Shown here piece by piece: positions 2,569 to 48,341 of a stretch of 64,000 nucleotides of DNA. The stretch is from Gammaproteobacteria bacterium (lineage in GTDB: Bacteria; Pseudomonadota; Gammaproteobacteria; Steroidobacterales; GCA-2729495). The notes below the pieces were generated by a model, which ran no database searches, was not told the origin of the DNA, and worked only from the letters and a program-made list of their open reading frames with translations. A program made the translations under genes and the position numbers. The stretch lies in NCBI GenBank assembly GCA_030426355.1, contig JAUHYQ010000001.1, positions 124,001 through 188,000 of the forward strand. Reading direction: 5' to 3'. Within the stretch, counting starts at the first letter, position 1. Each line of letters begins with the position of its first letter.

Positions 2569-3087
2569 ATGATTTACGACCTCAACGGCCAGACTGCCGA
2601 GATTGCTGATGATGCCTTTGTGGCACCCAACGCCAGCATTATCGGCGACGTGTGCCTGAAGAGCGGCGCTAGCGTCTGGTTTGGCGCAGTTATCCGCGGC
2701 GACATTGAGCGCATTACCGTCGGCACCGGTTCTAACGTTCAGGACGGCACAGTGATGCATACCGATCCGGATAACCCGTGCACGCTCGGCGACTACGTCA
2801 CGGTGGGTCATATGGCGATGCTGCACGGATGCAAAGTCGGTGACGGTTCGCTGGTGGGAATCGGCGCAACCCTGCTCAATGGTTCAAGAATCGGCAAGCG
2901 GTGCATCGTCGGCGCGCACACCTTGATCACAGAAGGCAAAAAGTTTCCGGACGGCGTACTCATCATTGGCACTCCGGGAAAAATTGTCCGTGAACTTAAT
3001 GAAGATGACTTCGCCCGCATGCGCGAAAACGCTGAACGTTACGTCGTGCGGGCGCAACGCTACCTGCAGGAACTCAAGGCGCGCTAA
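2569..3087 (+). CDS. Gamma-carbonic anhydrase family protein (YrdA-like)
   Basis: A 172-residue left-handed beta-helix (hexapeptide-repeat) protein. The repeats run through residues 15-125, and the metal-ligand histidines appear at about 64 (VMHTD), 81 (VGHMAM) and 86 (LHGCKV), the gamma-CA spacing. Family members are trimeric zinc or iron proteins; YrdA-type members often show weak or no hydratase activity, so carbonic anhydrase function is family inference. The start ATG is 3 bases after the gpmA stop. It converges on tesB and overlaps its stop by 4 bases. Confidence 0.88.
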   Translation: MIYDLNGQTAEIADDAFVAPNASIIGDVCLKSGASVWFGAVIRGDIERITVGTGSNVQDGTVMHTDPDNPCTLGDYVTVGHMAMLHGCKVGDGSLVGIGATLLNGSRIGKRCIVGAHTLITEGKKFPDGVLIIGTPGKIVRELNEDDFARMRENAERYVVRAQRYLQELKAR

Positions 3088-3968: not shown

Positions 3969-4008
3969 AACCTATGCTAACGTTTGCGGCCTACAGGAGG
4001 AAATGCTC

Positions 4009-12138: not shown

Positions 12139-12161
12139 GCCGGAACAATCCGGTAGCACGC

Positions 12162-13553
12162 TTATTTGTATTTGAATTGCACGTCGAGCTGCACGATATC
12201 GTTATCAAACGGATTCGACGTGGCCAGACTGCCGTTGTCGTAACCGTTGCTGTCTAGCTTTTCTCCCGCCAGATACTTTGCCGCGAGGTAGGTTGAGTTG
12301 CTGAGCATGTACTTGCCCTGCACCACGAAGCCCTTGGAATCGGTGCCGCCGCCCGCGAAATCAGAGTCCGTCAGCAAGCCCAGAACAGAGTCGGCCTCTT
12401 TTTCCTGATAGTAGGCCTTGACCTGCCATTCGCCCTTCTTCTTGGCCTTGCCGATATAACCACCGGCAAGATAGGCCGTGTCCAGCTTTTTGCCGGCCGA
12501 CGGTCCGTTGGGTATCGATTTGGCATCGACGTTCTTGGCAAAATCAAAGAAAAATCCGAACGGAGTTGCCGCATCGAAAGCAGCCACGCCGTAAATCTCT
12601 ACCGGCGCATAATCCATGAAGTAGAGCTCGCCCATGGGATCGACCATGCCCATCGCATTTACCAGCGTATTGCCCTGGCAGTCATCACCACGACCGTCAC
12701 TCGGCGCATTAAAACACTGTACGCCTTCAGCCTTGATCTTGAAGTAGCTCACACCAACATCAAGTTTGGCGCCACCGACCTGCGGGGTAGCACCCACCTG
12801 ACCACCGTAGTTGAATGAACTGCCGCTATTGCTGTCTGCCTCAAGCCAGGTGCCAAGGAAGTTCGCGTAAAAAGTGTCGCCCTCGTAGTAAACGTCGAAT
12901 CCTTCGGGGCGCCAGTCCGAATCCCACAGGAAACCGGAATCGGCTGCATCGACAAACTTATTCTTGAACTTACCGCCATAAAGATTCGCGTTTTCATCGA
13001 ACTGCCAGTCAAAATACGCAAGATCCAGCTTGATATCCTTACTGGAGCCCGCCCCGCCCAGCGTTTGATTCGACGAGACCGGGTCATCCCCACCCGTAGC
13101 GACGCCCAATACCGCGTCAACCGTCTCGGACACCTCGGCCGTTAGCGCGGCGCGCGCACGGATACGCTGCCGATTACGCTTTGAATCGGCCTCCGGAATA
13201 TTCATGGCATCACTCAAACCGCTTTTTTCTTCTGTCTGGTAGCGGTAGCGGAAGTCGCCTGAAAACTTGATGCGCTCCGCCCACGACATTTGCTCCAGAG
13301 CGGCCTGATTGTCGGCTACCTGCTGGCTCAGCGCAGTGATCTGCGCGCTGGCTTCAGTCGGCTCCTTGTTTGCCTGCGTGATCTGCCCTTCGGCGGGCCG
13401 GGCAGCCTGCTGCTGCTCCAACTCGCTGATACGGTCCAGCGCTTCTTCAAACATTTCTTTAAGCTGCTGAAACTCCGCATCACTGACTGCCGCACTTGCA
13501 ATCTGCGTCATCGTCAACAGCCACATGCCGGCAACGGCCACCAATACTTTCAT
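12162..13553 (-). CDS. Putative outer-membrane porin, probably phosphate-regulated
   Basis: A 463-residue outer-membrane protein with a signal peptide (MKVLVAVAGMWLLTMTQIASA), an N-terminal coiled coil (about residues 27-90, FEEALDRISELEQQQ) and a beta-barrel rich in alternating polar and aromatic residues that ends in FKYK. This resembles Gram-negative porins of the putative-porin (Porin_5-like) family. It lies directly behind pstB on the same strand and has its own Pho-box-like site at 13603-13620, 50 bases before the start. Phosphate or phospho-anion uptake is therefore a reasonable inference. Substrate is unproven. Confidence 0.8.
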   Translation of the reverse strand: MKVLVAVAGMWLLTMTQIASAAVSDAEFQQLKEMFEEALDRISELEQQQAARPAEGQITQANKEPTEASAQITALSQQVADNQAALEQMSWAERIKFSGDFRYRYQTEEKSGLSDAMNIPEADSKRNRQRIRARAALTAEVSETVDAVLGVATGGDDPVSSNQTLGGAGSSKDIKLDLAYFDWQFDENANLYGGKFKNKFVDAADSGFLWDSDWRPEGFDVYYEGDTFYANFLGTWLEADSNSGSSFNYGGQVGATPQVGGAKLDVGVSYFKIKAEGVQCFNAPSDGRGDDCQGNTLVNAMGMVDPMGELYFMDYAPVEIYGVAAFDAATPFGFFFDFAKNVDAKSIPNGPSAGKKLDTAYLAGGYIGKAKKKGEWQVKAYYQEKEADSVLGLLTDSDFAGGGTDSKGFVVQGKYMLSNSTYLAAKYLAGEKLDSNGYDNGSLATSNPFDNDIVQLDVQFKYK

Positions 13554-13597: not shown

Positions 13598-13634
13598 GAT
13601 TTATTACATAAATATTACATTTCTGTAATAAATC
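13598..13634. repeat. 37-bp palindrome upstream of the porin
   Basis: An 11-bp perfect inverted repeat: GATTTATTACA (13598-13608) pairs with TGTAATAAATC (13624-13634) around a 15-base spacer. It contains the Pho-box direct repeat at 13603-13620, so the same TGTAAT element appears in both orientations. It may be a dual-orientation regulator site or an mRNA leader hairpin. Confidence 0.7.
13603..13620 (-). promoter_or_regulatory. Pho box upstream of the porin
   Basis: Read on the minus strand the site is ATGTAAT-n4-ATGTAAT, two 7-mers spaced 11 bp apart, the geometry of PhoB boxes. It lies 50 bases before the porin start, with a weak CAATAT about ten bases downstream as a possible -10. The same half-site occurs at pstS and phoB. 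Confidence 0.7.
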
Positions 13635-13799: not shown

Positions 13800-14696
13800 T
13801 TACCCGATACGGCCGGTTACGTAGTCCTCAGTCAGGCGATGAATAGGATTGGTAAACACCGTATCGGTTGCCCCGACCTCGACAAGCTGCCCCATGTGAA
13901 AGTAAGCGGTGCGTTGCGAAACGCGTGCCGCCTGTTGCATGGAATGTGTCACGATGGCTATAGAGAAATTCTGCCGCAGCTCCTCGATCAAATCCTCGAT
14001 CTTGGCTGTGGCAATAGGATCCAGAGCAGAACACGGCTCGTCCATCAGAATAACCTCCGGATTAACCGCGATGGTGCGCGCGATGCACAGTCGTTGCTGC
14101 TGACCGCCAGATAACGAGGTACCAGGCTCGTCCATTCGACTTTTCACTTCGGCATACAGACCCGCTCGCTCCAGGCTGGAGAACACTATTTCGTCAAGCT
14201 CAGCGCGGCTCCGAGCGAGGCCATGTATGCGCGCACCGTAGGCAACATTCTCATAGACCGATTTGGGAAAGGGGTTGGGCTTCTGAAACACCATGCCAAC
14301 GCGTGCCCGCAATAGAACCGGATCGACTTCTTTAGCGTAAATGGGTTCGCCATCAAGCCTGATATCTCCTTCAACGCGTGCACCCTCAATAGTGTCATTC
14401 ATGCGGTTAAGACAACGAATAAAGGTTGACTTGCCACAACCCGAGGGACCAATCAGTGAAATAACCTCATTCCGACCAACGTCTAACGTAACGTTATTGA
14501 TAGCCTGATTATCGCCATAAAAAACATTGCAGTTGCGCACCGAAATAATCGGATCCGGCGATGTAACCTCCCCGACTGTTTCAAATATGCACTCGCCATC
14601 TTGTTCTTCTTTGCTCAACGTATCTCTTCCTGCAACGTAGGGGTCATGCGACCGATTGCCGATAAATCCATACTGCGTATCCATGGGCTTAAGCAT
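13800..14696 (-). CDS. pstB: Phosphate ABC transporter ATP-binding protein
   Basis: ATPase of the high-affinity phosphate importer PstSCAB, at the inner face of the inner membrane. Walker [10 protein letters not shown], the PstB-typical CLNRMND, ABC signature [14 protein letters not shown] and Walker [14 protein letters not shown] are all present. At 298 residues it is ~40 longer than E. coli PstB because of a polar N-terminal extension; an internal ATG (MDTQYG) five codons in is an alternative start. pstA lies 41 bases upstream on the same strand. Confidence 0.96.
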
Positions 14697-14737
14697 GGTT
14701 AAGTCTATGGGCCTGAGCCGTCCGTGTGAACCGCTCC

Positions 14738-16054
14738 TTACCAGCGCCGCTCATACTTGCTTCTAAGCCAAACTGCTGTAGCGTTCATCACCAGCAAAAA
14801 AGCCAGCAAAACCATGATGGCGGCGGCAGTGCGTTCCGCGAAAGCACGCTCCGGACTATCCGCCCACAAATAAATCTGAACGGGCAATGCCGACGACGGA
14901 TCAAGGGGTGTCTGCGGCGCTTCCACAATAAATGCGACCATGCCAATCATCAGAAGTGGAGCTGTTTCGCCCAAGGCGCGCGCAATGCCCAAAATCGCCC
15001 CGGTCAGCATACCCGGCATTGCCAACGGCAGTACATGATGCACAACCGCCTGCACCGGGGATGCGCCAATCCCCAGCGCTGCTTCGCGTATCGAGGGCGG
15101 AACCGCAGTAATCGCGCTGCGGGATGCAATAATAATGGTCGGCAGAGTCATCAACGCGAGCACCAATCCGCCTACCAGCGGGGCCGAACGGGGCAACGAC
15201 AAAAAATTGATAAACACGGCAAGCCCGAGCAAACCGAAAACAATAGATGGAACAGCTGCCAGGTTGTTGATATTCACTTCTATAAGGTCAACCCAGCGAT
15301 TGCGTGGTGCGAATTCTTCCAAATAGATGGATGCAGCGACACCCAGTGGGAAAGCAATGCTCATGCAAACCACCAGCATAAAGAATGACCCTTTGGCGGC
15401 CGCCCATATACCTGCCATCTCGGGGTCACGCGAGTCACCAGAGGTAAAAAATACTGTGTTAAAACGCTGCTCCAGTCGCCCTTGCGCAACCAACTGCCTG
15501 AGCCAGCCGATTTGTGCATCGCCGAGCCGGGCAGCACCGTCAGCATCGTCACCGCGACTGTATTGCTTAAACCAGGCATCAATTTCATCGTCTGCAAGAA
15601 ACCACAAAGATTCGCGTGATCCGATAATATCCGGCTCAGCCATTACCCGGTCCCGCAACTCGTAGATTGCACCGTTACTGACCAGACGATTAAGAAGCTG
15701 TTTGGGCTTTCGGCCGCTCACCTCCGGAAACATAGAGCCCAGACCGTCCTTGATAAGCCGCGAATAATTGACCTGCGAAAGCACATCTGGTGCCCTGCTA
15801 CCGTCCGGGCTAACCACATCAGGATCGAAATAGACATCAACCTGAATATACGTCTGCGTAAATGCCGTATAACCCTGACTGATGATACTTACAAAAAAGA
15901 ACGCCACGAACGAAACGCTGACGAGCACCGCAAGCAAACCGAAAAACCGGAAACGATTCTCACGCCGATACCGTGCCCCTAAAGACGCCTCGACGCGCTT
16001 GCGAGTTTCAACAGAGCTGCGCAACGCCGAGTTTGACGGACTTTCTTCAGACAT
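14738..16054 (-). CDS. pstA: Phosphate ABC transporter permease PstA, long form
   Basis: Inner-membrane permease of PstSCAB. The 438-residue length is well above the ~300 of E. coli PstA; the excess is a periplasmic insertion of roughly 120 residues after the first helix (residues ~40-190) before the conserved permease core. The core has the EAA-type loop [23 protein letters not shown] and [14 protein letters not shown]. The long form occurs in various proteobacteria. It ends 41 bases before pstB and starts 52 bases after the pstC stop. Confidence 0.94.
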
Positions 16055-16106
16055 CGAAATGGTTACCTATTAATCGTTGACTATTGCATCGCCTATTTAT
16101 CATCGT

Positions 16107-17495
16107 CTAATCGTATTGCTCGCGATACTTGCGCACGACGTGCAAAGCAATGATGTTAAGGATCAGCGTGACGATAAACAAAGTCAGGCCCAGCCCGAAA
16201 GCCGCCAAGGTTTTCGGGCTATCAAATTCCTGATCGCCTACCAGCAAAGTGACGATTTGCACTGTTACTGTTGTGACGGCCTCCAGTGGATTAATGGTCA
16301 TTTTCGCGGCGAGGCCGGCGGCCATGACAACGATCATGGTTTCACCAATAGCCCGCGAAGCGGCCAGCAGAAAGCCGCCTACGATCCCGGGCAACGCGGC
16401 CGGCAATACCACGCGGCGAATGGTCTCGGAACGCGTCGCACCCAGTCCCAGCGAACCGTCGCGCATTGACTGCGGTACCGAGTTAATCACATCGTCAGAA
16501 ATGGACGAGACAAACGGCAGAATCATGATGCCCATCACCAGGCCCGCACCGAGGGCGCTCTCTGATGAAATCTGAAGGCCCGCGCTAAGGCCAAAATCCC
16601 GCAGCAACGGAGCAACGGTTAAAGCGGCAAAGTAACCGTATACCACCGTTGGGATGCCAGCCAGCACCTCCAGCAGCGGCTTTACCACGCCCCGCACCCT
16701 GGCCGTGGTGTACTCGGAAAGATAGATCGCCACCATCAGCCCTATGGGCAATGCAATGATCATTGCTATACCCGAGATCATCAGGGTGCCCAAAAACAGA
16801 GGCACGGCACCAAACGATCCGGATGACCCCACCTGATCAGAACGAATAGCCGTTTGGGGGCTCCAGTTCAGCCCGAATAAAAAGTCGAACAGCGGCACCT
16901 TCTGAAAAAAACGAATCGACTCAAACAGCACGGAAAAGACAATGCCAATCGTGGTCAGCACGGCGATACTGGCTGCCATAACCAGCAACACCTGAATGGC
17001 CGACTCGACTCGGTTACGGGCCCTGAAGTCCCCGCTCAAATTGCGCCAGGCCAGATAACACCCGGTACTCGACAGTGCAACCACAGCCAGGCCCAGCAGT
17101 AGCGACAAGAATTCTCGACCGGCATTCAGACTGTCAGCTGCCGACTGAATGTAGGCCTCAGACTCTCCGGAAGTCTCGGCACCTGCCGCAACAACGCGGA
17201 TATCATTAAGCACGAGATTCAGTCGTGATTCAGGCAAGGAGCGCACTTCATCGGGAAGACCAGCGATTACACGGTCAAGAACAAGACCGTCGCCCATGAA
17301 AAAATACCCAAGAATGGCGATAATTGCGGGTATGGCACCCCACATCAGCACGTAGTAACCGTGATACATGGGTAGCGAATGCATGGTTCGCCCGGCGTCA
17401 AGCGCATGGCTGTATGCAATAGCTTTTTGCCGACCGGCAAAATAGCCAATGATCAGTATCGCAATGTATACGAGCAGTATGGTTGACAAGCGCAT
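16107..17495 (-). CDS. pstC: Phosphate ABC transporter permease PstC, long form
   Basis: Second permease of PstSCAB; 462 residues versus ~320 in E. coli. A long N-terminal region with two helices and a periplasmic stretch precedes the core, matching the long PstA. Core signatures are the EAA-type loop RDGSLGLGATRSETIRRVVLP and ASRAIGETMIVVMAAG, and SEYTTARVRGVVKPLLEVLAG. It follows pstS after a 125-base gap and precedes pstA in the same direction. Confidence 0.94.
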   Translation of the reverse strand: MRLSTILLVYIAILIIGYFAGRQKAIAYSHALDAGRTMHSLPMYHGYYVLMWGAIPAIIAILGYFFMGDGLVLDRVIAGLPDEVRSLPESRLNLVLNDIRVVAAGAETSGESEAYIQSAADSLNAGREFLSLLLGLAVVALSSTGCYLAWRNLSGDFRARNRVESAIQVLLVMAASIAVLTTIGIVFSVLFESIRFFQKVPLFDFLFGLNWSPQTAIRSDQVGSSGSFGAVPLFLGTLMISGIAMIIALPIGLMVAIYLSEYTTARVRGVVKPLLEVLAGIPTVVYGYFAALTVAPLLRDFGLSAGLQISSESALGAGLVMGIMILPFVSSISDDVINSVPQSMRDGSLGLGATRSETIRRVVLPAALPGIVGGFLLAASRAIGETMIVVMAAGLAAKMTINPLEAVTTVTVQIVTLLVGDQEFDSPKTLAAFGLGLTLFIVTLILNIIALHVVRKYREQYD

Positions 17496-17620
17496 TTAAA
17501 AATAAAGCAGGTAGTCAAATTGAATCCGATGAAAAACGGCAGCCGACGCACAGAATTCGCCGGCCGCCGCCAATTCTAGCCGTTCTGAATTGTCAGGCCA
17601 GCCTAATCTCGAGCTAATCA

Positions 17621-18679
17621 CTACAACGACAAATTGCGGAGATTCTTGACCGCGTCGACCACGGCCGCATATTCATCGGCAGGCAGTGGAATGAGGCCAC
17701 GATCAGCAAGATAGCCCTCTTCGCCCATCGCTCTATCACTAACAAATTCAGCCAGATATTCTTCAATCCCTGGAATCGTGCCGACGTGGGCCTTCTTCAC
17801 GTAGAAGTACAATGGCCGGGAAACCGGATAGGCGCCGTCAGCAATATTCTCGAACGTTGGGTCTTCACCGTCGACCCTGGAGCCCTGGACTACATCGGAA
17901 TTCTGGTCGAGAAAACTGAAACCGAAAATGCCCAGTGCTTTGTCGTTCGCCTGCAGTTTCTGCACAATAAGATTATCGTTCTCACCGGCCTCGACAAAGC
18001 GACCGTCCTCACGAATGGTGTGACAGATAGATTTGTACCGCGACTCATCATTCTTCTTAAGCGCCTTTATCCACGCAAAATTTTTGCATCCGCCTTCCAT
18101 TGCAAGCTCGACAAAGGCATCGCGCGTGCCTGAAGTTGGCGGCGGCCCCAGCACTTCGATGTTGGAGTCTGGAAGGTCGGCGCGAATGTCACTCCACTTC
18201 TGATAGGGGTTAGCAATCAATGACTCGGCGCCGTTGGGATTAGGCACTTCTTTGGCCAACGCCAGAAATATATCGCGGGTGGTTAATGACAACTGACCTG
18301 CAGCAACAGAATTCGCCAGCACGATACCGTCGTAGCCGATTTTTACCTCGACAATCTCTTCAACCCCGCTGGAGGCACAAGTTTCAACTTCAGAACTCTT
18401 AATGCGGCGGGATGAGTTGGCAATATCCGGCGTCCCTACGCCGATACCGGCACAAAACAGCTTCAGTCCGCCACCCGAACCGGTGGATTCAACGGTTGGC
18501 GTCTTGAAGCGGGAACCGCGCCCGAACTGCTCGGCAACCACGGTTGCGAACGGGTATACCGTTGAAGAGCCGACAATGCTGATTTGATCGCGGGCTGATT
18601 GCGCACCGACGTTGGTCGACGAGAATGACGCCATAACGGCGACGGAAATGACAATTGACTTGATCGCACCCTGAGTCAC
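17621..18679 (-). CDS. pstS: Periplasmic phosphate-binding protein
   Basis: Substrate-binding subunit of PstSCAB; 352 residues. The signal peptide is VISVAVMASFSSTNVGA (cleavage probably after AQSA-type residues near 27). The mature start DQISIVGSSTVYPFATVVAEQF is the canonical PstS phosphate-loop region, and GSGGGLKLFC and PPTSGTRDAFVELAM are further ligand loops. It has its own Pho box at 18737-18754, so it probably starts the pst transcript, with phoU upstream on the same strand. Confidence 0.95.
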   Translation of the reverse strand: MTQGAIKSIVISVAVMASFSSTNVGAQSARDQISIVGSSTVYPFATVVAEQFGRGSRFKTPTVESTGSGGGLKLFCAGIGVGTPDIANSSRRIKSSEVETCASSGVEEIVEVKIGYDGIVLANSVAAGQLSLTTRDIFLALAKEVPNPNGAESLIANPYQKWSDIRADLPDSNIEVLGPPPTSGTRDAFVELAMEGGCKNFAWIKALKKNDESRYKSICHTIREDGRFVEAGENDNLIVQKLQANDKALGIFGFSFLDQNSDVVQGSRVDGEDPTFENIADGAYPVSRPLYFYVKKAHVGTIPGIEEYLAEFVSDRAMGEEGYLADRGLIPLPADEYAAVVDAVKNLRNLSL

Positions 18680-18736
18680 AACATCCTCCAGAATTTAGCT
18701 GTTCGGTTTAGGTGCTGCGCAGTCTAGGCTTGGATT

Positions 18737-18754
18737 ATTACATCAGTATTACAT
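18737..18754 (-). promoter_or_regulatory. Pho box upstream of pstS
   Basis: On the minus strand: ATGTAAT-n4-ATGTAAT, exact 11-bp repeat. A TAGACT (four of six to TATAAT) lies about ten bases downstream, so the box takes the place of the -35, as in activated Pho promoters. It ends 57 bases before the pstS ATG. Confidence 0.78.
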
Positions 18755-18790
18755 TTAGAAATATTATAAATTGTTGTTTTAATTACTTTT

Positions 18791-19513
18791 TTACGGTCGC
18801 TTGGCCTCCACACGCTCGCGCAACTCCTCTATCTCTATATGCCTTACATCTTTGCCCTTGACCAGATAAATCACATACTCCGAGATATTCTTGGCATGGT
18901 CGCCGATGCGCTCCAACGCACGCGCAACCCAGCTGATGTCCATAAAGCGGCGGATGGTATGTGGGTCTTCCATCATCATTGAAATGCATTGACGGGAAAT
19001 CATGTCGTACTCTTCGTCGACGAGTTTGTCCTCCTCGACCACCCTGAGTGCATCCTCTGCATCCAGACGGCTAAATGCATCCAGTGCGTCATGAACCATC
19101 TCCAGAACATGCTCTGCGAGCGTCTTCAGCTCGTCGTGACGTTGTGTTTGCTGCGCCTCACCGGCCAGACGCGCTGCCAGAATCCCGATCCGCTGCGCCT
19201 CGTCTCCAATCCTCTCCAAATCCGTGATCGCCTTGATAACCGCAACAACAAGGCGCAGATCTGCTGCTGCCGGCGCGCGAGTCGCCAGAATGCGCCCGCA
19301 TTCCTCATCGATTTTGACTTCGAACCGGTTAACCTCAACGTCGCGCTTGGCCACTTCCAGACCAAGGTTGCTATCGGCCGAAACGATGGCCTCGATGGCC
19401 TGAGTCAACTGCATCTCAACCAGCCCGCCCATATTACTGACCTGACTGCGAAGCCGCTCAAGTTCTTCGTTAAACTTGCGCGAGATATGTTGACCAAAGA
19501 TTTCGCTTTCCAT
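18791..19513 (-). CDS. phoU: Phosphate signalling protein PhoU
   Basis: Cytoplasmic regulator linking PstSCAB to the PhoR kinase and repressing the Pho regulon when phosphate is ample. The 240-residue, almost all-helical protein carries two PhoU repeats with VNRFEVKIDEECGRILATRAP, LRLVVAVIKAITDLERIGDEA and WVARALERIGDHAKNISEYV, containing the paired E/DxxxD metal motifs. It lies between phoR and pstS, whereas in E. coli phoU is last in the pst operon, after pstB. Confidence 0.96.
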   Translation of the reverse strand: MESEIFGQHISRKFNEELERLRSQVSNMGGLVEMQLTQAIEAIVSADSNLGLEVAKRDVEVNRFEVKIDEECGRILATRAPAAADLRLVVAVIKAITDLERIGDEAQRIGILAARLAGEAQQTQRHDELKTLAEHVLEMVHDALDAFSRLDAEDALRVVEEDKLVDEEYDMISRQCISMMMEDPHTIRRFMDISWVARALERIGDHAKNISEYVIYLVKGKDVRHIEIEELRERVEAKRP

Positions 19514-19563
19514 GGCGCCGATCCTCTAAAAACAGTTGATGGTTAATATACAGGCCGGATGCA

Positions 19564-20853
19564 TCATGCGATAGCAACTATTGATGCAGCGGGAAATATG
19601 CAGGTGAACACACTGCCTTTGCCCAGCTCACTTTCAATTTTCAACCTGGCACCGTGACGGGTCAGAGCATGCTTGACGATAGCAAGCCCGAGGCCCGTTC
19701 CGCGTCCGCCGACGCGCTCCCGACCATCTTCCACGCGATAGAACCGTTCACATAAACGCGGCAGATGCTCTTTGGCAATGCCCTTGCCGGTATCGGCGAC
19801 CGACAGATAGGCCCCGTCAGCATCGGTCCACCAACGCATCGTAATGCGACCTTCCGCCGGAGTGTATCGTGCAGCATTCGACGCCAGATTGGACACCACC
19901 GATTGAATGTCCCGAACATTACCGATCAAATCAGAATCGCTATCCACAACGATGTCTACCTGCCGTGGCCCATCGGGCAATGCCAGCACTTCCTGGCGCG
20001 CCGTCTCTAATACAGCGCGTATATTGACCGCCGCCGGCTTGCTCACCGCACGCTCAGTCTCAAGTTCTGACAGCCGCAGCAGCTCATCGACCAATTGCCG
20101 CATGCGCGTCGTCTGAGTCTGCATCTCTGCAACCGGCTGCTTCAGCTCAGCATCCAGAGTCTTGTCGTCGGCCAGTGCGTCAAGGTAGCCTGCAATAACC
20201 GTGAGCGGCGTGCGCAGTTCATGTGACGCGTTTGCAACAAAGTCGCGCCGCATCTCCTCGAGTTTGCGGCGGTCGGTTACGTCTCTCACCAGCAGCATCT
20301 TTTGATCGAAGCCATACGGAACTGCATGGCATGAAAGCCATTGATCGCTGTTCATGGGAGAAGCTATTTCGACCGGTGCCGCAACATCGTCGCGGCGCAA
20401 ATAGGCAACAAAGGCCGGATCCCGCAAAAGGTTCTCGATACGCAAGCCGCGATCACGTTTTTTTAGTCCAAGCAATTCACGGGCGGCACGGTTAAACACG
20501 ACAATCTCATTGCGATCGTTGAGAATTACACCTGCGTCAGGGAATGTGCGCGTTGCCTGACGCAGTTGCTTGAGAAGCAACTTAAAACGCCGCCCCCTGC
20601 GGCGCCCGCGATTGCGCAGAAAATCAATGCGCGCGAATACCCGCGGCCATATGCCCGAGCCCTCGGGCAAGACTTCCATCTTCTTGCCATGCAGCCACTT
20701 GTCCAGGCGGTACAGCCAGGCAAGATGCCAAGCCAAAGCGGCTGTGGTTGCGATAAGCAGACCTGCCAACGGCCTGTCATAAAGCGCCCCGATGACTAGC
20801 CCGCCCATGCCCAGCAAGAACAGGCGCAGAAAAACTGAACCCCAGTTGGTCAT
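19564..20853 (-). CDS. phoR: Phosphate regulon sensor histidine kinase
   Basis: Membrane-bound histidine kinase, 429 residues. One hydrophobic stretch at residues 5-50 forms the membrane anchor, followed by a basic linker, a PAS domain (TFPDAGVILNDRNEIVVFNRAA, about 98-190), HisKA with FVANASHELRTPLTVIAGYLDA, and HATPase_c with NLASNAARYTP, VADTGKGI and GRGTGLGLAIVKHAL. This is the standard PhoR layout without a periplasmic sensor domain. The start shares one base with the phoB stop (TAATG), so translation is coupled. Confidence 0.95.
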   Translation of the reverse strand: MTNWGSVFLRLFLLGMGGLVIGALYDRPLAGLLIATTAALAWHLAWLYRLDKWLHGKKMEVLPEGSGIWPRVFARIDFLRNRGRRRGRRFKLLLKQLRQATRTFPDAGVILNDRNEIVVFNRAARELLGLKKRDRGLRIENLLRDPAFVAYLRRDDVAAPVEIASPMNSDQWLSCHAVPYGFDQKMLLVRDVTDRRKLEEMRRDFVANASHELRTPLTVIAGYLDALADDKTLDAELKQPVAEMQTQTTRMRQLVDELLRLSELETERAVSKPAAVNIRAVLETARQEVLALPDGPRQVDIVVDSDSDLIGNVRDIQSVVSNLASNAARYTPAEGRITMRWWTDADGAYLSVADTGKGIAKEHLPRLCERFYRVEDGRERVGGRGTGLGLAIVKHALTRHGARLKIESELGKGSVFTCIFPAASIVAIA

Positions 20854-21554
20854 TAGCCCGCCTGCTCCGGCTCGGCGGAAAAACGATAGCCCGCGCCCCG
20901 AACAGTCTGCACGTATCGTTCAGCACCGCTGTCGTGTAGCGCCTTTCGCAGACGCTGGATATGCACGTCGACGGTGCGCTCTTCGATATAGACGTTTCTA
21001 CCCCATACGTTGTCGAGAATTTGTTCACGACTGTAGACCCGCTCTGGATGCTGCATAAAAAAACTCAGCAATTTGTACTCCGTGGGCCCCAGCGGGAGCT
21101 CCTTCCCGCTAATGAGCAAACGATGCTCATCCGGCTTAAGCTCGAGTATTCCGGCCACGATGGGCTCACTGACACCCACACCGGAACGACGCAGCACTGC
21201 ATTGATGCGGGCCACCAGTTCACGCGCAGAGAACGGCTTGGTAACGTAATCGTCCGCTCCCCCATCCAGACCCAGTATTTTGCTCTGCTCTTCGGCACGC
21301 GCCGTCAACATGATGATTGGCAAATCTTTGTAACTATCATCTCGCTTGAGCGAGCGGGTGAGTTCCAGCCCGCTGGAATCAGGCAGCATCCAGTCAACCA
21401 GCAGCAGATCGGGACGATTATTGGCAACCAGCGTGCGCGCCGCCGCGCAACTATCTGCCTCGTCTATCGCAAAACCTGCCCGGTGCAGATTGAATGCAAT
21501 CATTTGCCGCACCGGCGCCTCGTCTTCGACGATCAGTATCCTTGGATGTTTCAT
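20853..21554 (-). CDS. phoB: Phosphate regulon response regulator
   Basis: OmpR/PhoB-family regulator, 233 residues. The receiver domain has the acidic pair VEDEAPV, the phospho-acceptor Asp in LLLVDWMLPDSSG and the Lys in DDYVTKPFSAREL. The C-terminal winged helix has GPTEYKLLSFFMQHPERVYSREQILDNVWG and VDVHIQRLRKAL, very close to E. coli PhoB. The strong match in the recognition region supports use of E. coli-like Pho boxes here. It leads the phoBR operon and has a Pho box in its own promoter. Confidence 0.97.
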   Translation of the reverse strand: MKHPRILIVEDEAPVRQMIAFNLHRAGFAIDEADSCAAARTLVANNRPDLLLVDWMLPDSSGLELTRSLKRDDSYKDLPIIMLTARAEEQSKILGLDGGADDYVTKPFSARELVARINAVLRRSGVGVSEPIVAGILELKPDEHRLLISGKELPLGPTEYKLLSFFMQHPERVYSREQILDNVWGRNVYIEERTVDVHIQRLRKALHDSGAERYVQTVRGAGYRFSAEPEQAG

Positions 21555-21600: not shown

Positions 21601-21618
21601 ATTACAGCCCGATTACAG
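21601..21618 (-). promoter_or_regulatory. Pho box upstream of phoB
   Basis: On the minus strand: CTGTAAT-n4-CTGTAAT, then ten bases and TGTAAT (21586-21591), which fits a -10 element five of six. This implies PhoB autoregulation of phoBR. The box ends 46 bases before the phoB ATG. Confidence 0.75.
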
Positions 21619-41275: not shown

Positions 41276-41352
41276 GCGCCCGTAGCTCAGTTGGATAGAG
41301 TGTCTGGCTACGAACCAGAAGGTCGGGAGTTCGAATCTCTCCGGGCGCGCCA
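41276..41352 (+). tRNA. tRNA-Arg (anticodon ACG)
   Basis: A complete 77-nt cloverleaf: acceptor GCGCCCG/CGGGCGC, D arm GCTCAGTTGGATAGAGT, anticodon arm TCTGG-CTACGAA-CCAGA with anticodon ACG at 41310-41312, T arm GGGAG-TTCGAAT-CTCTC, discriminator G and encoded CCA. It decodes CGU/CGC/CGA after A34 becomes inosine. Its 3' part is the integration site of the island that follows. Confidence 0.98.
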
Positions 41353-41355
41353 TTT
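41308..41355 (+). repeat. Left 48-bp attachment repeat (tRNA 3' part)
   Basis: From the anticodon loop (CTACGAACC) through the CCA end plus TTT; identical over 48 bases to 46482-46529. Start in the anticodon loop is typical of tRNA-targeting tyrosine recombinases. Confidence 0.92.
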
Positions 41356-42230: not shown

Positions 42231-42311
42231 TCATAACCAGTTGGGGCAAAGGGCTCGCTGCGCGAGCGGGACGCCTGGCTTCGCCAGCCGCCCCTGCCCA
42301 AGGCGTTAGGT
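42231..42311 (+). repeat. Integron attC site 1
   Basis: R'' TCATAAC, arm TTGGGGCA, an internal region of nested hairpins (GCTCGCTGCGCGAGC and CTGGCTTCGCCAG), arm TGCCCAA and R' GTTAGGT (GTTRRRY). Arms pair with one unpaired G, a typical attC extrahelical base. 81 bases. Confidence 0.8.
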
Positions 42312-42319
42312 GCCGAGTT

Positions 42320-43285
42320 TTGCCGCTAGATCACTACGTATCACAGGTGCATCTAAAAAACTTCAGCCGACCCGGCAGCGATGCGCACTTGTGCGCTATC
42401 CGAAAGTCTGATCAGCACTATTTTGAGCCCCACACCAGAACGGTGTGCAGAACCGCGGATGGAAGCACCAACCAATATCTAACAGAACCTCGCGCAGTCG
42501 AGGAGTTTTTAAAAGGTATTGAGCCTAGATATAACCAAGCGATATCCCAGTTGGCCATTCAAGAGCCTGATCAGGAAACTATATATACGCTTTCTGGGTT
42601 TATAGCCTATGTTATGACTTGCTCGCCTGCAGGCATGCGCATTCTCTCGGAACCGTATCGAGGCACGATTACTGAGACGGCTAAAACGTTAGAAAGGCAC
42701 GATCTCTTGCCGAAAACTCCCAAAGAGCTTGTGGGCAAAACCTTAGCTCAAATGCTGGAAGATGGGAGTGTAAAAGCAGCTGTAGACGAGAAGTACCCAC
42801 AGGCTGTAGGTATCTCCCAAATTATTAGGAGAACAGCCCTGTTAGGTAACTTTAAATGGGAGATATTAGTAAACGAGCACGAAGACAGCCCTTTTTTTAC
42901 AAGCGACTTTCCTGTCGCCATAGAAAAGACACCGGTACCTCAGACTCTTTGCAAAGTTGTTCCTTTGTCGCCTTATTTAGCTCTTAGGATATTCCCAGAC
43001 ATAGAGCTAGACAAAGATAAAGCAGATCTAGATTTTGCCAACTTTGGATATCGTGTATCAAAATTATCTCGTTCTCAGGTCGGCGAAGTAAACAAGCTTA
43101 TTGTTAGGTCAGCAGAGTCCCTTGTCTTTTTTCCAGTCTTGTATGATTGGATTCCTAAGTTTGTTAATAGAAATTCGCCGTACAGAATTGAACCTGTAAC
43201 TAGCGCCCTGCCGACGCCTTCAGGCAGCATGATGATTTTCTCGCAACGCATTGCCAGGATAGATAGTGATAAGAACGGCACCTAA
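42320..43285 (+). CDS. DUF4238 family protein (cassette-encoded)
   Basis: A 321-residue DUF4238 protein. The N-terminus MPLDHYVSQVHLKNFS is the family hallmark, and YLTEPRAVEEFLKGIEPRYNQAI and SPFFTSDFPVAIEKT with PLSPYLALRIFP match the expected central part. Function is unknown; DUF4238 genes often sit on mobile elements. TTG 42320 is the start, nine bases after the preceding R' site. The stop codon lies inside R'' of attC 2, a typical cassette arrangement. Confidence 0.82.
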   Translation: MPLDHYVSQVHLKNFSRPGSDAHLCAIRKSDQHYFEPHTRTVCRTADGSTNQYLTEPRAVEEFLKGIEPRYNQAISQLAIQEPDQETIYTLSGFIAYVMTCSPAGMRILSEPYRGTITETAKTLERHDLLPKTPKELVGKTLAQMLEDGSVKAAVDEKYPQAVGISQIIRRTALLGNFKWEILVNEHEDSPFFTSDFPVAIEKTPVPQTLCKVVPLSPYLALRIFPDIELDKDKADLDFANFGYRVSKLSRSQVGEVNKLIVRSAESLVFFPVLYDWIPKFVNRNSPYRIEPVTSALPTPSGSMMIFSQRIARIDSDKNGT

Positions 43286-43375
43286 CCAGCACAGGCAAGC
43301 GACGCTTGACTCGCCTGCGCCGTTGCTAGCGCAACCGACTTGTCGTATCAAGCGCGCCTGCTGTGGGCGTTAGGT
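43280..43375 (+). repeat. Integron attC site 2
   Basis: R'' ACCTAAC, arm CAGCACAGGC, central stem, arm GCCTGCTGTGG and R' GTTAGGT. 96 bases. Its arms are nearly identical to attC 3, which suggests cassettes 2 and 3 came from the same integron pool. Confidence 0.88.
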
Positions 43376-43381
43376 GCTTAG

Positions 43382-44188
43382 ATGGGTGATATAAAAGAAA
43401 TCTTCGAAGTTTGGGCTTCCCGCGCAAAGAGCCCACTATTCGGATATTTCTCGCTGTCGTTTGTTGCTACAAACTGGAAGGCGATATTTTTCCTACTTTT
43501 CGCCGATAAAGACGTTATATCCCGCATTGAATATTTTGACTCGAACACTTGTGCAGAGACGCTGCTGTGGATCCCTTTAGGCATAAGCATTGTGGCAGCT
43601 CTTAGTTACCCTTGGATCCAATTCGTGTTTCTGTACGCAACCACAGGGCCGATCAACCTTCGGAACAAATTAAACGCCAAATCGGAAAGCAATCTTTTAT
43701 TAGTAAAGGTCGAGCTTGAAAACGCCAGAAATGAACTAATTCGTCAACGCGAAAAGGAGATAATTGATAAAGCGCAGATCGATGAGAAATTAGAAGATAT
43801 TGATGACGAATCGGCTAGAGAAAAGGCTAGAAGTGAAATTAAAGCTATAAGAGATTCAGAAGGACTTTTACGGCAACCAATAAATAGAGAGACGTTACAA
43901 AGGTATTTACTCGTCCGATTTCCTAATTTGCCAGTAGATAGAAAAATAATTACCATTTTTTTGAACGACTTGAATTTGAATCGGTACAAGTTGATTGGGG
44001 ATGTGGAAGAAGTCCTGAATAGTTCCAAAGAATTTGTAGAGTTCTATAAAGAAAAAAAACCTGAAGTGTTTAAGTCTAGTATTGACTATGTGACCAAGTC
44101 TTTTGGTTACTTCGATCAGGAATTCAGAAAAAAGCATGGATTCTCAAATGAAACTCGACAAACGATGGAAGATTACACTCGCACCTAA
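43382..44188 (+). CDS. Cassette-encoded membrane protein with coiled coil
   Basis: A 268-residue protein of unknown function, AT-rich in codon use. The N-terminus EVWASRAKSPLFGYFSLSF with NWKAIFFLLFA starts a two-helix membrane module (second helix IPLGISIVAALSYPWIQFVFL). A charged coiled coil follows (~105-165, KVELENARNELIRQREKEI, EDIDDESAREKARSEIKAI) and then a C-terminal soluble domain with LLVRFPNLPVDRKIITIF. ATG 43382 is seven bases after the R' site. The stop lies inside attC 3. A defence or toxin role is possible but unproven. Confidence 0.72.
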   Translation: MGDIKEIFEVWASRAKSPLFGYFSLSFVATNWKAIFFLLFADKDVISRIEYFDSNTCAETLLWIPLGISIVAALSYPWIQFVFLYATTGPINLRNKLNAKSESNLLLVKVELENARNELIRQREKEIIDKAQIDEKLEDIDDESAREKARSEIKAIRDSEGLLRQPINRETLQRYLLVRFPNLPVDRKIITIFLNDLNLNRYKLIGDVEEVLNSSKEFVEFYKEKKPEVFKSSIDYVTKSFGYFDQEFRKKHGFSNETRQTMEDYTRT

Positions 44189-44266
44189 CCAGCACAGGCA
44201 GGCGACCGTGAAACGCTGGCTCGTTCCCCAGGCAGCCTTGGCCCGCGCCTGCTGTGGGCGTTACAA
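44183..44266 (+). repeat. Integron attC site 3
   Basis: R'' ACCTAAC, arm CAGCACAGGC, central stem, arm GCCTGCTGTGG and right core GTTACAA. 84 bases. The right core departs from GTTRRRY, as can happen when the downstream cassette supplies these bases or is degraded. Confidence 0.85.
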
Positions 44267-44467: not shown

Positions 44468-45424
44468 CTAGCGTTTTTCCATACAGACTTTGCTTGCACC
44501 CACCAAGGCCCAAACTTCGCATTCTTCATCCTTCGGGCTAGTTCGTTTCTCATTAAGCAACGTCGGTCTTGGCGGAAGCGTTGGTATTCGGCGCGACTTC
44601 TCAGCCCTGTAACGATTTCCAGTATCAATTGGTGTCGCCTCTTTACGCTCACGGGCTTTTGGTACCAGTACTTTCGAAATAAAATCGTAGGAATTAGGGA
44701 AAGGAATACCGAAGCCACCCTGATATTCGCTGCCTTCTTGATCACATCGCTTGACAGTGAGAGCTCCCCCACTCGGCAGTTTCTGCGACGTGTAGTAACT
44801 CACCCGTCTACCCATTACCTTCCCATTCGCCCGATCTACGACTTGGGTCTCATCTCCATATACGCCATACCGTTGATCATCTATTGTTGTTAGAGCGTTC
44901 CATGTCACTAAGTAAGCTGACGATGCATTTTCTTTTTGCAGGGCATCGCTAGCGGAGATATTAGACAGATTTTCGCTACCCTCCTTCTTCTTGTACTCGT
45001 ATACCTGCCCGCCAGCACTGCGGGAAAATTCGAACGTCTCGTAGTATCCATATGGCTTATTAAGATAAGTGTAAGGAAGAATGTCACTCGTATGAAATGG
45101 GCTTAGCCGCGCCGTTTCATCCGTTGGAAGCAACAGCCAAAACCCCTCGACATCTTTGGCGCTTTCGTACACCCACTCACCCGCGCTATTACACAAATGG
45201 CGGAGCTTTACGCCAGCGATATCGCTCTCCACCGTATCGCTGTATGGGAACCACGCCATGCCCCCCAATAATGTTGTGAGCAATACAATATCAATCGCAA
45301 TTCTTGATTGCGTAGCGTGCCGACCGACCGAATACTTCCTCAGAAAGAATCGAGCAATAAGGCGCGATACCAGCAAAAAAATAGCCGTCAGAACCGTAAG
45401 CAATATCGCTGTTTGTGGGCTCAT
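44468..45424 (-). CDS. Membrane-anchored protein of unknown function, paralogue of the next gene
   Basis: A 318-residue protein with two N-terminal helices (AILLTVLTAIFLLVSRLIAR and IAIDIVLLTTLLGGMAWF), then a large domain probably outside the cytoplasm with LRHLCNSAGEWVYESAKDVEGF, VVDRANGKVMGRRVSYYT and FPNSYDFISKVLVP. These blocks recur, diverged, in the upstream gene at 45435. The start is 10 bases after that gene's stop, so the two form an operon. It runs against the cassette genes. No family recognised. Confidence 0.7.
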   Translation of the reverse strand: MSPQTAILLTVLTAIFLLVSRLIARFFLRKYSVGRHATQSRIAIDIVLLTTLLGGMAWFPYSDTVESDIAGVKLRHLCNSAGEWVYESAKDVEGFWLLLPTDETARLSPFHTSDILPYTYLNKPYGYYETFEFSRSAGGQVYEYKKKEGSENLSNISASDALQKENASSAYLVTWNALTTIDDQRYGVYGDETQVVDRANGKVMGRRVSYYTSQKLPSGGALTVKRCDQEGSEYQGGFGIPFPNSYDFISKVLVPKARERKEATPIDTGNRYRAEKSRRIPTLPPRPTLLNEKRTSPKDEECEVWALVGASKVCMEKR

Positions 45425-45434
45425 GAATCAATCC

Positions 45435-46172
45435 CTACTTATCAGCATTGAAAATACTCTTTACGAAACGTGCGACATCTATCGGATGAGGACAAGTTAG
45501 AAACCCGGGTTTCTGGATAACCCAAGGAGTTGCTGCGGGACCTGGAAATGCTTTCAGAAGCGGTATAGCCCCTAGCAAAACAACTTGCGACCCAAGAATT
45601 TGGTCCGTAGTTGCATCCTTTACCTGTAAAGTTGCTGAGCTCACAAGTCTGTTGGACATTTTGGGCCCCTCTACCCATTCAAGTACGACGGTGCTATCAC
45701 CACTCTTTGATTGAGCACTCTTTCGCTCCAGATCACCATTTTCTCCAATGAACACGAGTTGATTACGAAGGTCTGAAGTTACAACCAACTTACCAACCGG
45801 TTTTTCGCCACTCAGAAAATATCTCTCTGCCATTTTTCTAGAAAAAACACGCTCACCTATAGCCCCCGCCTGACTTTTTCGTGGCGAAGACTTATAAAAT
45901 ATTCTTTCGGGAACATCTGACTGAAAGCGTATTTCAGATCGAACTGAACGATCACAAATCATCGAAAATGATGCCTTAAGTTCACGACTCTTGTAGAAAA
46001 TATAAGCCGTAGTGACCGGATAATAGAGGCCTACGACGACCAGAACCAATAGAGCAGATAGCCTTATCCGTGGTTTTTTTATAGTCGCCCAAACGGTTAT
46101 AAAAAGAATAAAAAAAATCGCTGGGATAACCAGAGAAAATACGCCTAGACCGGTCCGCAGAAAAAACTCCAT
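45435..46172 (-). CDS. Membrane-anchored protein of unknown function, paralogue of the previous gene
   Basis: A 245-residue protein with two or three N-terminal helices (LGVFSLVIPAIFFILFITVW and ALLVLVVVGLYYPVTTAYIF), then a soluble domain with SMICDRSVRSEIRFQSDVPER, VKDATTDQILGSQVVLLG and CPHPIDVARFVKSIF, which line up with three blocks of the 44468 gene. Start ATG 46172 follows AGGGAGGGG, a strong ribosome site. Gene pairs of this kind can be partners such as effector and immunity proteins, but nothing here proves it. Confidence 0.7.
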   Translation of the reverse strand: MEFFLRTGLGVFSLVIPAIFFILFITVWATIKKPRIRLSALLVLVVVGLYYPVTTAYIFYKSRELKASFSMICDRSVRSEIRFQSDVPERIFYKSSPRKSQAGAIGERVFSRKMAERYFLSGEKPVGKLVVTSDLRNQLVFIGENGDLERKSAQSKSGDSTVVLEWVEGPKMSNRLVSSATLQVKDATTDQILGSQVVLLGAIPLLKAFPGPAATPWVIQKPGFLTCPHPIDVARFVKSIFNADK

Positions 46173-46481: not shown

Positions 46482-46529
46482 CTACGAACCAGAAGGTCGG
46501 GAGTTCGAATCTCTCCGGGCGCGCCATTT
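46482..46529 (+). repeat. Right 48-bp attachment repeat (truncated tRNA-Arg copy)
   Basis: Identical to 41308-41355. It contains only half of the anticodon arm, the T arm and the acceptor end, so it cannot be a functional tRNA; it marks the right island boundary. Confidence 0.92.
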
Positions 46530-46588: not shown

Positions 46589-47128
46589 TCAGGTTGCACC
46601 CAATGCCAGCCCAGCCCCGATAAGCGCGCCAACCAGCACATCGCTCGGATAATGCAGCCCCAGCAAAACCCGCGATAGCGCTACCAGCACAGCAAAGGGC
46701 AGCGCGATTGCGGCCAGCACCGGATCCACACCCGCGATCATGATCGTAAATGAAACGGCATGCAGCGTATGCCCGGAGGGGAAGCTGTATTGATCAAGTG
46801 GGGCGACTGCGCATTCAATGTTGTCATACGAAACGTAGGGACGATTTCGCACCAGGCGGCTTTTCAGCACTTTATAGATCAGCACGCCCATCGCGGTGAC
46901 TACCATCATATCCACCAAATTCGGCAATACTTCATTGCCGTGCCTGACATAAAGCATCACGCCAAATGCAAGCCATATCCACCCGTCACCCAGCTTGCTC
47001 ACAATGGCAAAAAGTTCGCGTACGACATCATGTCGCGCAAGCTGGTTAACCCGCACGCAAATGCCTCTCTCCCACTCATCAAGTTGTCGAATTGCCGCTA
47101 TCAAGGTCTGCCTCTCTCGCCAAAACAC
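46589..47128 (-). CDS. PAP2-superfamily membrane phosphatase
   Basis: A 179-residue integral-membrane lipid-phosphatase-like protein. The three PAP2 motifs are present: KSRLVRNRP, PSGHTLH and SRVLLGLHYPSD, giving the catalytic His-Arg-His set. Hydrophobic helices surround them. Substrates in the family include phosphatidic acid, phosphatidylglycerol phosphate and undecaprenyl pyrophosphate. GTG 47128 is the start. It is divergent from a glycosyltransferase, and both starts lie about 33 bases from a triple Pho-box-like repeat, so phosphate-starvation induction is likely. Confidence 0.88.
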   Translation of the reverse strand: MFWRERQTLIAAIRQLDEWERGICVRVNQLARHDVVRELFAIVSKLGDGWIWLAFGVMLYVRHGNEVLPNLVDMMVVTAMGVLIYKVLKSRLVRNRPYVSYDNIECAVAPLDQYSFPSGHTLHAVSFTIMIAGVDPVLAAIALPFAVLVALSRVLLGLHYPSDVLVGALIGAGLALGAT

Positions 47129-47161
47129 GGGGCAATAGTGAGGTTCAATTTAGACACGGTA

Positions 47162-47190
47162 ATGACAATTTGATGACACCTGCGTGACAG
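47162..47190 (-). promoter_or_regulatory. Triple Pho box facing the PAP2 gene
   Basis: On the minus strand: CTGTCAC-n4-GTGTCAT-n4-TTGTCAT, three half-sites at exact 11-bp steps. A TCTAAAT about eight bases downstream may be the -10. The site is 33 bases before the PAP2 start codon. Confidence 0.75.
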
Positions 47191-47205
47191 CGCGTGGCTG
47201 GCCGG

Positions 47206-47234
47206 ATGTCACACCCCTGTAACAGCCCTGTCAT
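47206..47234 (+). promoter_or_regulatory. Triple Pho box facing the glycosyltransferase gene
   Basis: ATGTCAC-n4-CTGTAAC-n4-CTGTCAT, three half-sites at exact 11-bp steps; the last is a perfect E. coli-type PhoB half-site. It ends 33 bases before ATG 47268 and favours that ATG over GTG 47250, which would lie at or before the expected transcription start. Confidence 0.78.
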
Positions 47235-47267
47235 CAAGCAGCAACGTTAGTGAGCCAGAATTTCGCT

Positions 47268-48341
47268 ATGCGAGTGGTAATAGCAACCGATGCGTGGGCT
47301 CCGCAGGTGAACGGCGTGGTAACGACGCTGACCCAGACTCGGAACAGCCTGCTGGATTCAGGGCACGACGTGCTGATGATTACGCCGACAGGCCGCAGGT
47401 CGTACCCGTGCCCAAGTTACCCGGAAATACGGCTCGCCTTCTTTGCAGGCAAGGCCATTGCTCGGGAAATAGCGGCCTTTCGGCCGGATTGCATACACAT
47501 CGCGACCGAAGGGCCGATCGGGCTGTCGGTTCGGCGCTACTGCCTCAAGAACAAAATTCCGTTCACAACCGCTTATCACACTCAGTTTCCCGAGTACGTC
47601 AGGTCCCGGTTTCCGATCCCAATCAGTTGGACTATCGCTCTCACACGGTGGTTTCACAAGCCCGCCGTCCGCACCATGGTGCCGACAAAAAGTGTGCAGG
47701 AACTGCTGACAGAACGCGGCTTTGAACATGTCGTGCTGTGGTCCCGAGGTGTCGACACCAGCCTCTTCTGCCCGACCGACGCCGTTAACTATGCCTACCC
47801 CCGGCCTATCTGGCTGTACCTGGGCCGGGTCAGTGTCGAAAAGAATATTGAAGAATTTCTTTCCCTCGACATCCCGGGAACCAAAGTCGTGATTGGTGAT
47901 GGCCCGGATCGGGAGAAGTTGTCTGTACGGTATCCCGCATGCCAATTTTTAGGCTATAAATTCGGTGCCGATTTAGCCCGGCACTTAGCAGGCGCCGATG
48001 TGTTTGTATTCCCGAGCAAAACGGACACCTTCGGACTGGTGATGCTCGAAGCCATGTCATGCGGACTGCCCGTTGCCGCCTTCCCGGTGACCGGCCCCAT
48101 TGACGTTGTCTGCAACGGAAAAACAGGAATACTAGCCGACGATCTGCGGGACGCCTGCCAACAAGCGCTCAATTTAGGCCGGGACACCTGTCGGGAGTAT
48201 GCAAAAAGCCGAAGCTGGGACGAAGCTGCGCGCCAGTTCTGCTCACATCTCGCGGTGTTCACCGCGCCGCTTCAGCCCCAAAATACACAGGGGCCGATCA
48301 TGCGACCGGCCCCTGTGTCGAACAAACTGCCGCGCAGCTAG
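47268..48341 (+). CDS. Family-4 glycosyltransferase, probably lipid-directed
   Basis: A 357-residue GT-B glycosyltransferase of the GT4 group that includes sulfolipid synthase SqdX and the mannosyltransferases PimB/MgtA. Signatures: the N-terminal MRVVIATDAWAPQVNGVVTTL, AYHTQFPEYV, LYLGRVSVEKNIEEFL, and the donor-site SKTDTFGLVMLEAMSCGLP. Control by a Pho box and the divergent lipid-phosphatase gene suggest it makes glycolipids that replace phospholipids; sugar and acceptor are unknown. GTG 47250 is an alternative start. The last 20 codons contain a 12-bp hairpin, and the stop overlaps the TonB receptor stop within CTAG. Confidence 0.85.
   Translation: MRVVIATDAWAPQVNGVVTTLTQTRNSLLDSGHDVLMITPTGRRSYPCPSYPEIRLAFFAGKAIAREIAAFRPDCIHIATEGPIGLSVRRYCLKNKIPFTTAYHTQFPEYVRSRFPIPISWTIALTRWFHKPAVRTMVPTKSVQELLTERGFEHVVLWSRGVDTSLFCPTDAVNYAYPRPIWLYLGRVSVEKNIEEFLSLDIPGTKVVIGDGPDREKLSVRYPACQFLGYKFGADLARHLAGADVFVFPSKTDTFGLVMLEAMSCGLPVAAFPVTGPIDVVCNGKTGILADDLRDACQQALNLGRDTCREYAKSRSWDEAARQFCSHLAVFTAPLQPQNTQGPIMRPAPVSNKLPRS
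48285..48318 (-). terminator. Hairpin terminator for the TonB receptor, inside glycosyltransferase codons
   Basis: A perfect 12-bp stem (ACACAGGGGCCG at 48285-48296 with 48307-48318) and 10-base loop. On the minus strand it is 20 bases after the receptor stop and followed by ATTTT, so it can end that transcript. On the plus strand no T-run follows. It codes for glycosyltransferase residues at the same time. Confidence 0.65.

Follow-up and report, generated by a model that had tools for sequence, protein, structure and literature searches.

A divergent PAP2 phosphatase–glycosyltransferase gene pair under opposed Pho box arrays suggests phosphate-controlled glycolipid remodelling without PlcP in a gammaproteobacterium

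In the PlcP–Agt system of membrane lipid remodelling, a GT4 glycosyltransferase makes glycolipid from diacylglycerol under phosphate stress (PMC4796936, PMC8528852 and PMC9239053; these and the other papers are cited here from part of their text), and Pho boxes have been reported for this system in PMC4796936 and PMC8528852. Diacylglycerol can be made only by dephosphorylating phosphatidate or by means of a phospholipase C (Sebastian and co-workers, PMC4796936). According to the cited part of the same paper, Phaeobacter MED193 and HTCC7211 appear to be without phosphatidate phosphatase homologues, and cyanobacteria probably use phosphatidate phosphatases for diacylglycerol. A P. aeruginosa plcP mutant keeps some glucuronosyl lipid, which was ascribed to an alternative diacylglycerol supply (PMC8528852), and ocean metagenomes have been surveyed through plcP for lipid remodelling driven by phosphorus (PMC4796936). 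Among the best-ranked titles of a literature search, with subscription papers mostly outside its reach, none dealt with a Pho-controlled PAP2 enzyme paired with an Agt-type glycosyltransferase in proteobacteria. Here we analyse such a candidate pair in a 64-kb stretch of gammaproteobacterial DNA, the whole of which is called the window. Read from sequence, the Pho boxes, the phoB–phoR–pst genes, the catalytic motifs, the conservation in relatives and the failure to detect PlcP suggest that a shared Pho switch on PAP2 and glycosyltransferase (GT) serves to swap phospholipid for sugar lipid without the usual phospholipase.

The intergenic region of the divergent PAP2 and GT genes (47129–47267) carries two outward-facing triple Pho boxes (Table 1). 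An earlier note on this DNA had described two opposed sets of three TGTMAY half-sites at 11-bp spacing, and this is confirmed; its coordinates for them (47162–47190 and 47206–47234) were correct at the outer edges and one base off at the inner edges. A weaker fourth half-site, TGTCTA at 47151–47156, extends the minus-strand array. When the 2.82-Mb genome (G000; 2,823,934 bases in 11 contigs, 99.69% complete) was scanned, these two arrays were its only TGTMAY triples with 0 mismatches, and triples with up to two mismatches numbered eight, compared with one for a backward control pattern. Perfect half-site pairs occur seven times genome-wide (two for the backward control), all inside the window and all before genes of the Pho set: one at the porin, one at pstS, one at phoB and two in each of the PAP2 and GT arrays. 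Pairs with at most one mismatch numbered 10 in the window against a shuffle mean of 2.24.

Table 1. Positions of the annotated genes and Pho boxes within the window
Feature	Coordinates	Strand	Remarks
PAP2-family membrane lipid phosphatase	46589..47104	minus	171 aa from likely start TTG 47104
Triple Pho box facing PAP2	47162-47189	minus	TGTCACGCAGG-TGTCATCAAAT-TGTCAT, 18/18 to TGTMAY, exact 11-nt spacing
Triple Pho box facing GT	47207-47234	plus	TGTCACACCCC-TGTAACAGCCC-TGTCAT, 18/18 to TGTMAY, exact 11-nt spacing
GT4 glycosyltransferase, Agt/GTcp diacylglycerol type	47268..48341	plus	357 aa; PF13439, PF13692, PF00534 over cut-off
Porin_5 outer-membrane porin	12161..13553	minus	PF16930 122 bits
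Pho box array upstream of porin	13603..13630	minus	16/18; perfect pair 13603-13619
pstC, pstA, pstB	13800..17495	minus	PF12501/PF00528, PF11812/PF00528, PF00005; names by context
pstS-like phosphate-binding protein	17621..18679	minus	PF12849; name by context
Pho box pair upstream of pstS	18737..18753	minus	pair scan
phoU	18791..19513	minus	PF01895
phoR sensor kinase	19564..20853	minus	PF11808 PhoR, HisKA, HATPase_c
phoB response regulator	20853..21554	minus	TIGR02154 320.3 bits, cut-off 296.2
Pho box pair upstream of phoB	21601..21617	minus	pair scan

A phoB–phoR–phoU–pstSCAB run spans 13800–21554 of the same window. As regards membership of a PhoB regulon, both phoB and phoR are thus present, and 11-nt direct repeats are common to the phoB, pstS and PAP2/GT promoters. 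The array of the Porin_5 gene lies about 50 nt upstream of it, and its product is likely a phosphate-related porin of the Pho set.

The plus-strand array ends 33 nt before the GT start codon ATG 47268, a start supported by relatives: among the full-length matches listed, nearly all begin at residue 1 or 2. The earlier note had put each array 33 bases before its start codon; this stands for GT and would apply to PAP2 only if translation began at GTG 47128, which gives an open frame of 179 aa (46589–47128, minus strand). The likelier PAP2 start is TTG 47104. The starts of six homologues (L004, L010, L034, L036, L037 and L045), picked by script as the closest start codon at the match or upstream of it, align with it, and a GAGAGG stretch lies just upstream; other homologues have script-picked starts one to two residues later or longer N-ends. 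With TTG 47104 as the start, the minus-strand array is probably 57 nt from the PAP2 gene, and a 33-nt spacing common to both sides finds no support.

The DNA beyond the PAP2 stop codon has features of its own. Two exact 48-nt copies in direct orientation, at 41308–41355 and 46482–46529, correspond to the 3' half of a tRNA-Arg gene (tRNA 41276–41352); the right copy ends (46529) some 60 bp away from the stop codon of PAP2. The two copies bound a 5.2-kb stretch, much of which is lower in GC, and resemble the termini of an integrated island. Within this stretch, at 42289–44263, repeats with GTTAGGTGC / GCACCTAAC ends flank ORFs 42320–43285 (DUF4238) and 43382–44188, an arrangement that we take to resemble integron attC sites and gene cassettes. 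A Pfam search gave no match for ORFs 43382–44188, 44468–45424 and 45435–46172, and neither these ORFs nor the convergent TonB receptor gene downstream was tied to the PAP2–GT pair.

Conservation of the arrays was compared across 25 distinct divergent PAP2–GT intergenics, the window's included and identical ones merged. The best GT-side triple ends 32–35 nt before the start in 22 of the 25 (exceptions L004, L055 and L103). A score of at least 14/18 was reached on the GT side in 20/25, on the PAP2 side in 20/25, on both in 16/25 and on at least one in 24/25; the divergent pair of L103 has no Pho boxes on either side. PAP2 genes of this clade not adjoining a GT gene also carry arrays: 16 of 19 scored at least 14/18, compared with 1 of 40 control ORFs (Mann-Whitney p 1e-9, kinship ignored), the controls being upstream regions of other ORFs of the same loci, taken mechanically and some probably not genes. 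The same unlinked loci, 20 hand-picked from the upper PAP2 list less L165, dropped at a contig end, reached shuffle p <=0.01 in 16/19. In other linked gene orders PAP2 is mostly without an array of its own (3/10 at shuffle p <=0.01: L181, L183 and L195); this set comprised L179–L183, L190 and L193–L196, in some of which PAP2 lies downstream within a gene run. The plcP–GT operons, serving as positive control, gave 32/58 distinct cases at shuffle p <=0.02, a weaker signal than that of the divergent pairs and one blurred by the 300-nt window and match-based starts. Shuffles for unlinked PAP2, linked PAP2 and plcP–GT operons keep base content only.

In a genome of the same family as the window's (L160), the PAP2 gene of this clade is near a Porin_5 porin; in L160 and L163 it is close to a similar ORF pair (3182–4189 and 2995–3876, respectively) that looks CHAD-like by eye and had no NCBIfam match. 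At three loci of another family, f7 (L164, L167 and L168), the neighbour of a Pho-boxed PAP2 not linked to GT is an FGGY kinase, identified in L164 as the glycerol kinase GlpK.

The GT has the features of a diacylglycerol enzyme. It keeps 13 of the 14 functional residues reported for GTcp, the SAR11 diacylglycerol enzyme (PMC8231724), with positions placed by motif offset and not by alignment to the GTcp sequence. The catalytic and sugar-binding residues are H104 and D253 (the GTcp His104–Asp256 pair), G16, G82, G85, R187, K192, T254, F255, G256 and E261. Among the diacylglycerol-contact residues (GTcp His104, Thr162, Arg163 and Trp320), H104, R160 and W317 are kept and Thr162 corresponds to Ser159, the single exception. 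The motif FPSKTDTFG matches FPSXTDTFG exactly, and GRVSVEKN differs from the published GRVAXEKN by one change, A to S. The protein is 54% identical to a Methylophaga aminisulfidivorans homologue (L075) whose gene itself follows a PlcP gene, and a GT from another Methylophaga species falls within the GTcp group (PMC8231724). No NCBIfam model matched it over cut-off, and the named relatives of the window's genome are mostly gammaproteobacterial MAGs among the matches listed. Sequence and conservation in relatives lend good support both to Pho control and to the assignment of this GT to the diacylglycerol type; in these two respects the earlier reading of the locus is upheld.

The window's genome gave no match at 1e-15 or 1e-60 to a PlcP profile built from 12 PlcP-type proteins, a family so named because its members have a Metallophos domain, precede GT and differ from LpxH, without alignment to a characterised PlcP. 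PF00149 (Metallophos) has four matches in this genome; three score above the NCBIfam cut-offs for CpdA, ApaH and LpxH, and the fourth resembles bis-tetraphosphatase or Pnkp-type phosphatases. All three PlcP-type proteins tried do score against PF00149. In many relatives plcP is upstream of GT, and the window has the divergent PAP2 in its place.

To place this arrangement we used a survey of 396 genomes, a sample of the order (E <= 1e-60 for GT, 1e-60 for PlcP and 1e-30 for PAP2), which found GT in 138, PlcP in 144 and PAP2 of this clade in 171. PAP2 is present in 106/138 genomes with GT and in 65/258 others (kinship ignored), and PlcP in 116/138 genomes with GT, leaving 22 without a PlcP match. 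PAP2 and PlcP occur together in 111/396 genomes, that is, in 111 of the 144 with PlcP, which rules out mutual exclusion. The divergent PAP2–GT pair was found in at least 23 genomes; among the 23 listed, PlcP is present in 15 and absent in 8, so that PAP2 is found alongside PlcP more often than in its stead. This list and the co-occurrence tables were compiled by hand from profile matches and loci, with L002 and L003 left out of the neighbourhood counts, and G205 and G079 count as divergent on the strength of PAP2 genes truncated by contig ends. PlcP absence in 8/23 divergent-pair genomes, among the matches listed, compared with 14/115 other GT genomes, is a weak excess (Fisher p 0.012, kinship ignored). 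Some of these absences may be gaps, since four of the eight genomes (G002, G193, G205 and G297) are 87–88% complete; the others (G174, G079, G166 and G000) are 91–99.7% complete. The proposal of the earlier note that PAP2 may supply diacylglycerol instead of PlcP would fit the present genome, in which no PlcP was found. Other linked orders, read from coordinates among the matches listed, are PAP2–plcP–GT (G074), GT–plcP–PAP2 (G142, G167, G276, G312 and G362) and divergent PAP2 and plcP–GT (G246); PAP2 also adjoins a second GT, 31–35% identical, for example in G111, G100, G139 and G145.

GT occurs in 2/5 genomes of the window's genus. In a GT tree of 45 rows, two GTs of this genus, from the window and from G002, fall inside family f7, taken here as Woeseiaceae, at forks of 98/88 and 100/99, and apart from the remaining three GTs of the family to which their genomes belong. 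A PAP2 tree of 50 rows again groups the PAP2s of the window and G002 with f7 (100/99), apart from the PAP2s of their own family; the rows of both trees were chosen by hand. The agreement of the two placements suggests that both genes of the divergent pair were transferred horizontally together. In three f7 genomes (G135, G237 and G243), plcP is directly upstream of GT instead of the divergent PAP2, so PlcP and PAP2 occupy one and the same place beside GT. PAP2 is located elsewhere with its own Pho array in G135 and G243, and G237 gave no PAP2 match at 1e-30 among the matches listed.

The window PAP2 matches PF01569 at 75 bits and has all three PAP2 motifs, KX6RP, PSGH and SRX5HX3D. The account that we favour, and hold to be rather probable, is that PhoB-induced PAP2 makes diacylglycerol from phosphatidate, which GT converts to glycolipid in a PlcP-free route. 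Upon phosphate limitation, phosphorylated PhoB would bind both outward-facing arrays and switch on PAP2 and GT along with the pst–pho genes and the porin. PAP2 would then convert phosphatidate, or a close lipid phosphate, into diacylglycerol and released phosphate; the Agt-type GT would transfer a sugar from a UDP-sugar onto diacylglycerol, and new membrane made from the presumed glycolipid would replace phospholipid without the PlcP phospholipase. In relatives with PlcP, PAP2 would provide diacylglycerol from new synthesis and PlcP would salvage old phospholipid.

The main rival keeps both genes under Pho control and has PAP2 free phosphate from lipid A, undecaprenyl diphosphate or phosphatidylglycerophosphate, with GT drawing its diacylglycerol from housekeeping reactions. 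The closest solved relative of PAP2 speaks for this and counts against a phosphatidate substrate: the best PDB sequence match is LpxE (53.7 bits), not a phosphatidate phosphatase, and the structural model (pLDDT 89) has LpxE 6ebu as its best fold match (Z 18.4 over 156 residues), with B. subtilis PgpB 5jki at Z 16.8 over 161 residues. All four NCBIfam matches are below their cut-offs, the best being to the undecaprenyl-diphosphatase SepP (59 bits against 250), and in 43 of the 171 PAP2 genomes no match to either GT or PlcP passed the E-value limits applied, which implies uses of PAP2 beyond the glycolipid pathway. However, the lipid A phosphatase model NF028538 had no match to the window PAP2 in the NCBIfam search (E 0.001) and did match another PAP2 of the same genome. 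This genome has two further PAP2 matches; the second, which adjoins an EptA-type transferase, reaches 174.6 bits with the lipid A phosphatase model (below the cut-off of 275), and the third resembles the acid phosphatase PhoC, below cut-off. The repeated linkage of PAP2 to GT and PlcP likewise points to diacylglycerol, and we consider the main rival possible but unlikely. At the second PAP2 (locus L140:9-1917), elsewhere in the genome, the gene for the EptA-type phosphoethanolamine transferase overlaps the lipid A phosphatase-like gene; such a transferase would release diacylglycerol too.

Use of phospholipid turnover, with PAP2 as an accessory to an unrecognised phospholipase of another family, would agree with the co-occurrence of PAP2 in 111 of the 144 PlcP genomes. 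We judge it improbable, given that the window's own genome has no match to the PlcP profile and its Metallophos matches fit other families, in a search that covered the PlcP/Metallophos fold. Chance repeats without any regulation are far less probable still. The half-sites are short and degenerate, and the divergent locus L103 lacks boxes, yet perfect triples and pairs are unique genome-wide, an identical site type precedes phoB and pstS, and the GT-side distance is kept in 22 of the 25 distinct intergenics, the window's included; uniqueness, shuffles and conservation in relatives led us to reject a chance origin of the boxes. Beyond the PhoB-induced, PlcP-free route proposed for this genome, we give about even chances to a wider reading. 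The clade of this PAP2, common in its gammaproteobacterial order, would belong to the Pho regulon as a rule and provide a PlcP-independent route to diacylglycerol from new synthesis, pairing with Agt-type GTs in several gene orders; its divergent version, arrays included, would have reached a PlcP-less lineage by horizontal transfer from a Woeseiaceae-like source, and that lineage would have gained glycolipid remodelling in a single event.

If a Pho-controlled PAP2 does supply diacylglycerol, surveys based on plcP only would overlook bacteria that remodel their lipids; across the 396 genomes, the possible miss amounts to the 22 of 138 GT genomes without a PlcP match, of which 8 carry the divergent PAP2. 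Should the proposed mechanism be true, the PAP2–GT pair would also be a Pho-controlled example of alternative diacylglycerol supply. Compared with the solved enzymes LpxE and PgpB (PDB 6ebu, 5jki and 5jwy), the window PAP2 has the same fold and the three PAP2 motifs and differs in having Pho boxes upstream and only below-cut-off NCBIfam matches. The cyanobacterial proposal, as given in the cited part of PMC4796936, invokes the same diacylglycerol source, phosphatidate, as would apply to the window PAP2; in contrast to it, the present PAP2 comes from a genome with mostly gammaproteobacterial MAGs as named relatives, is predicted to be under Pho control and is partnered by an Agt-type GT. With the PlcP–Agt system the window shares a GT of the same residue type, and it departs from that system in that no PlcP was found in its genome and a PAP2 gene with its own Pho array stands divergently where in many relatives plcP sits upstream of GT. 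The arrangement would be a variant form of glycolipid remodelling under Pho control rather than a system of a new kind.
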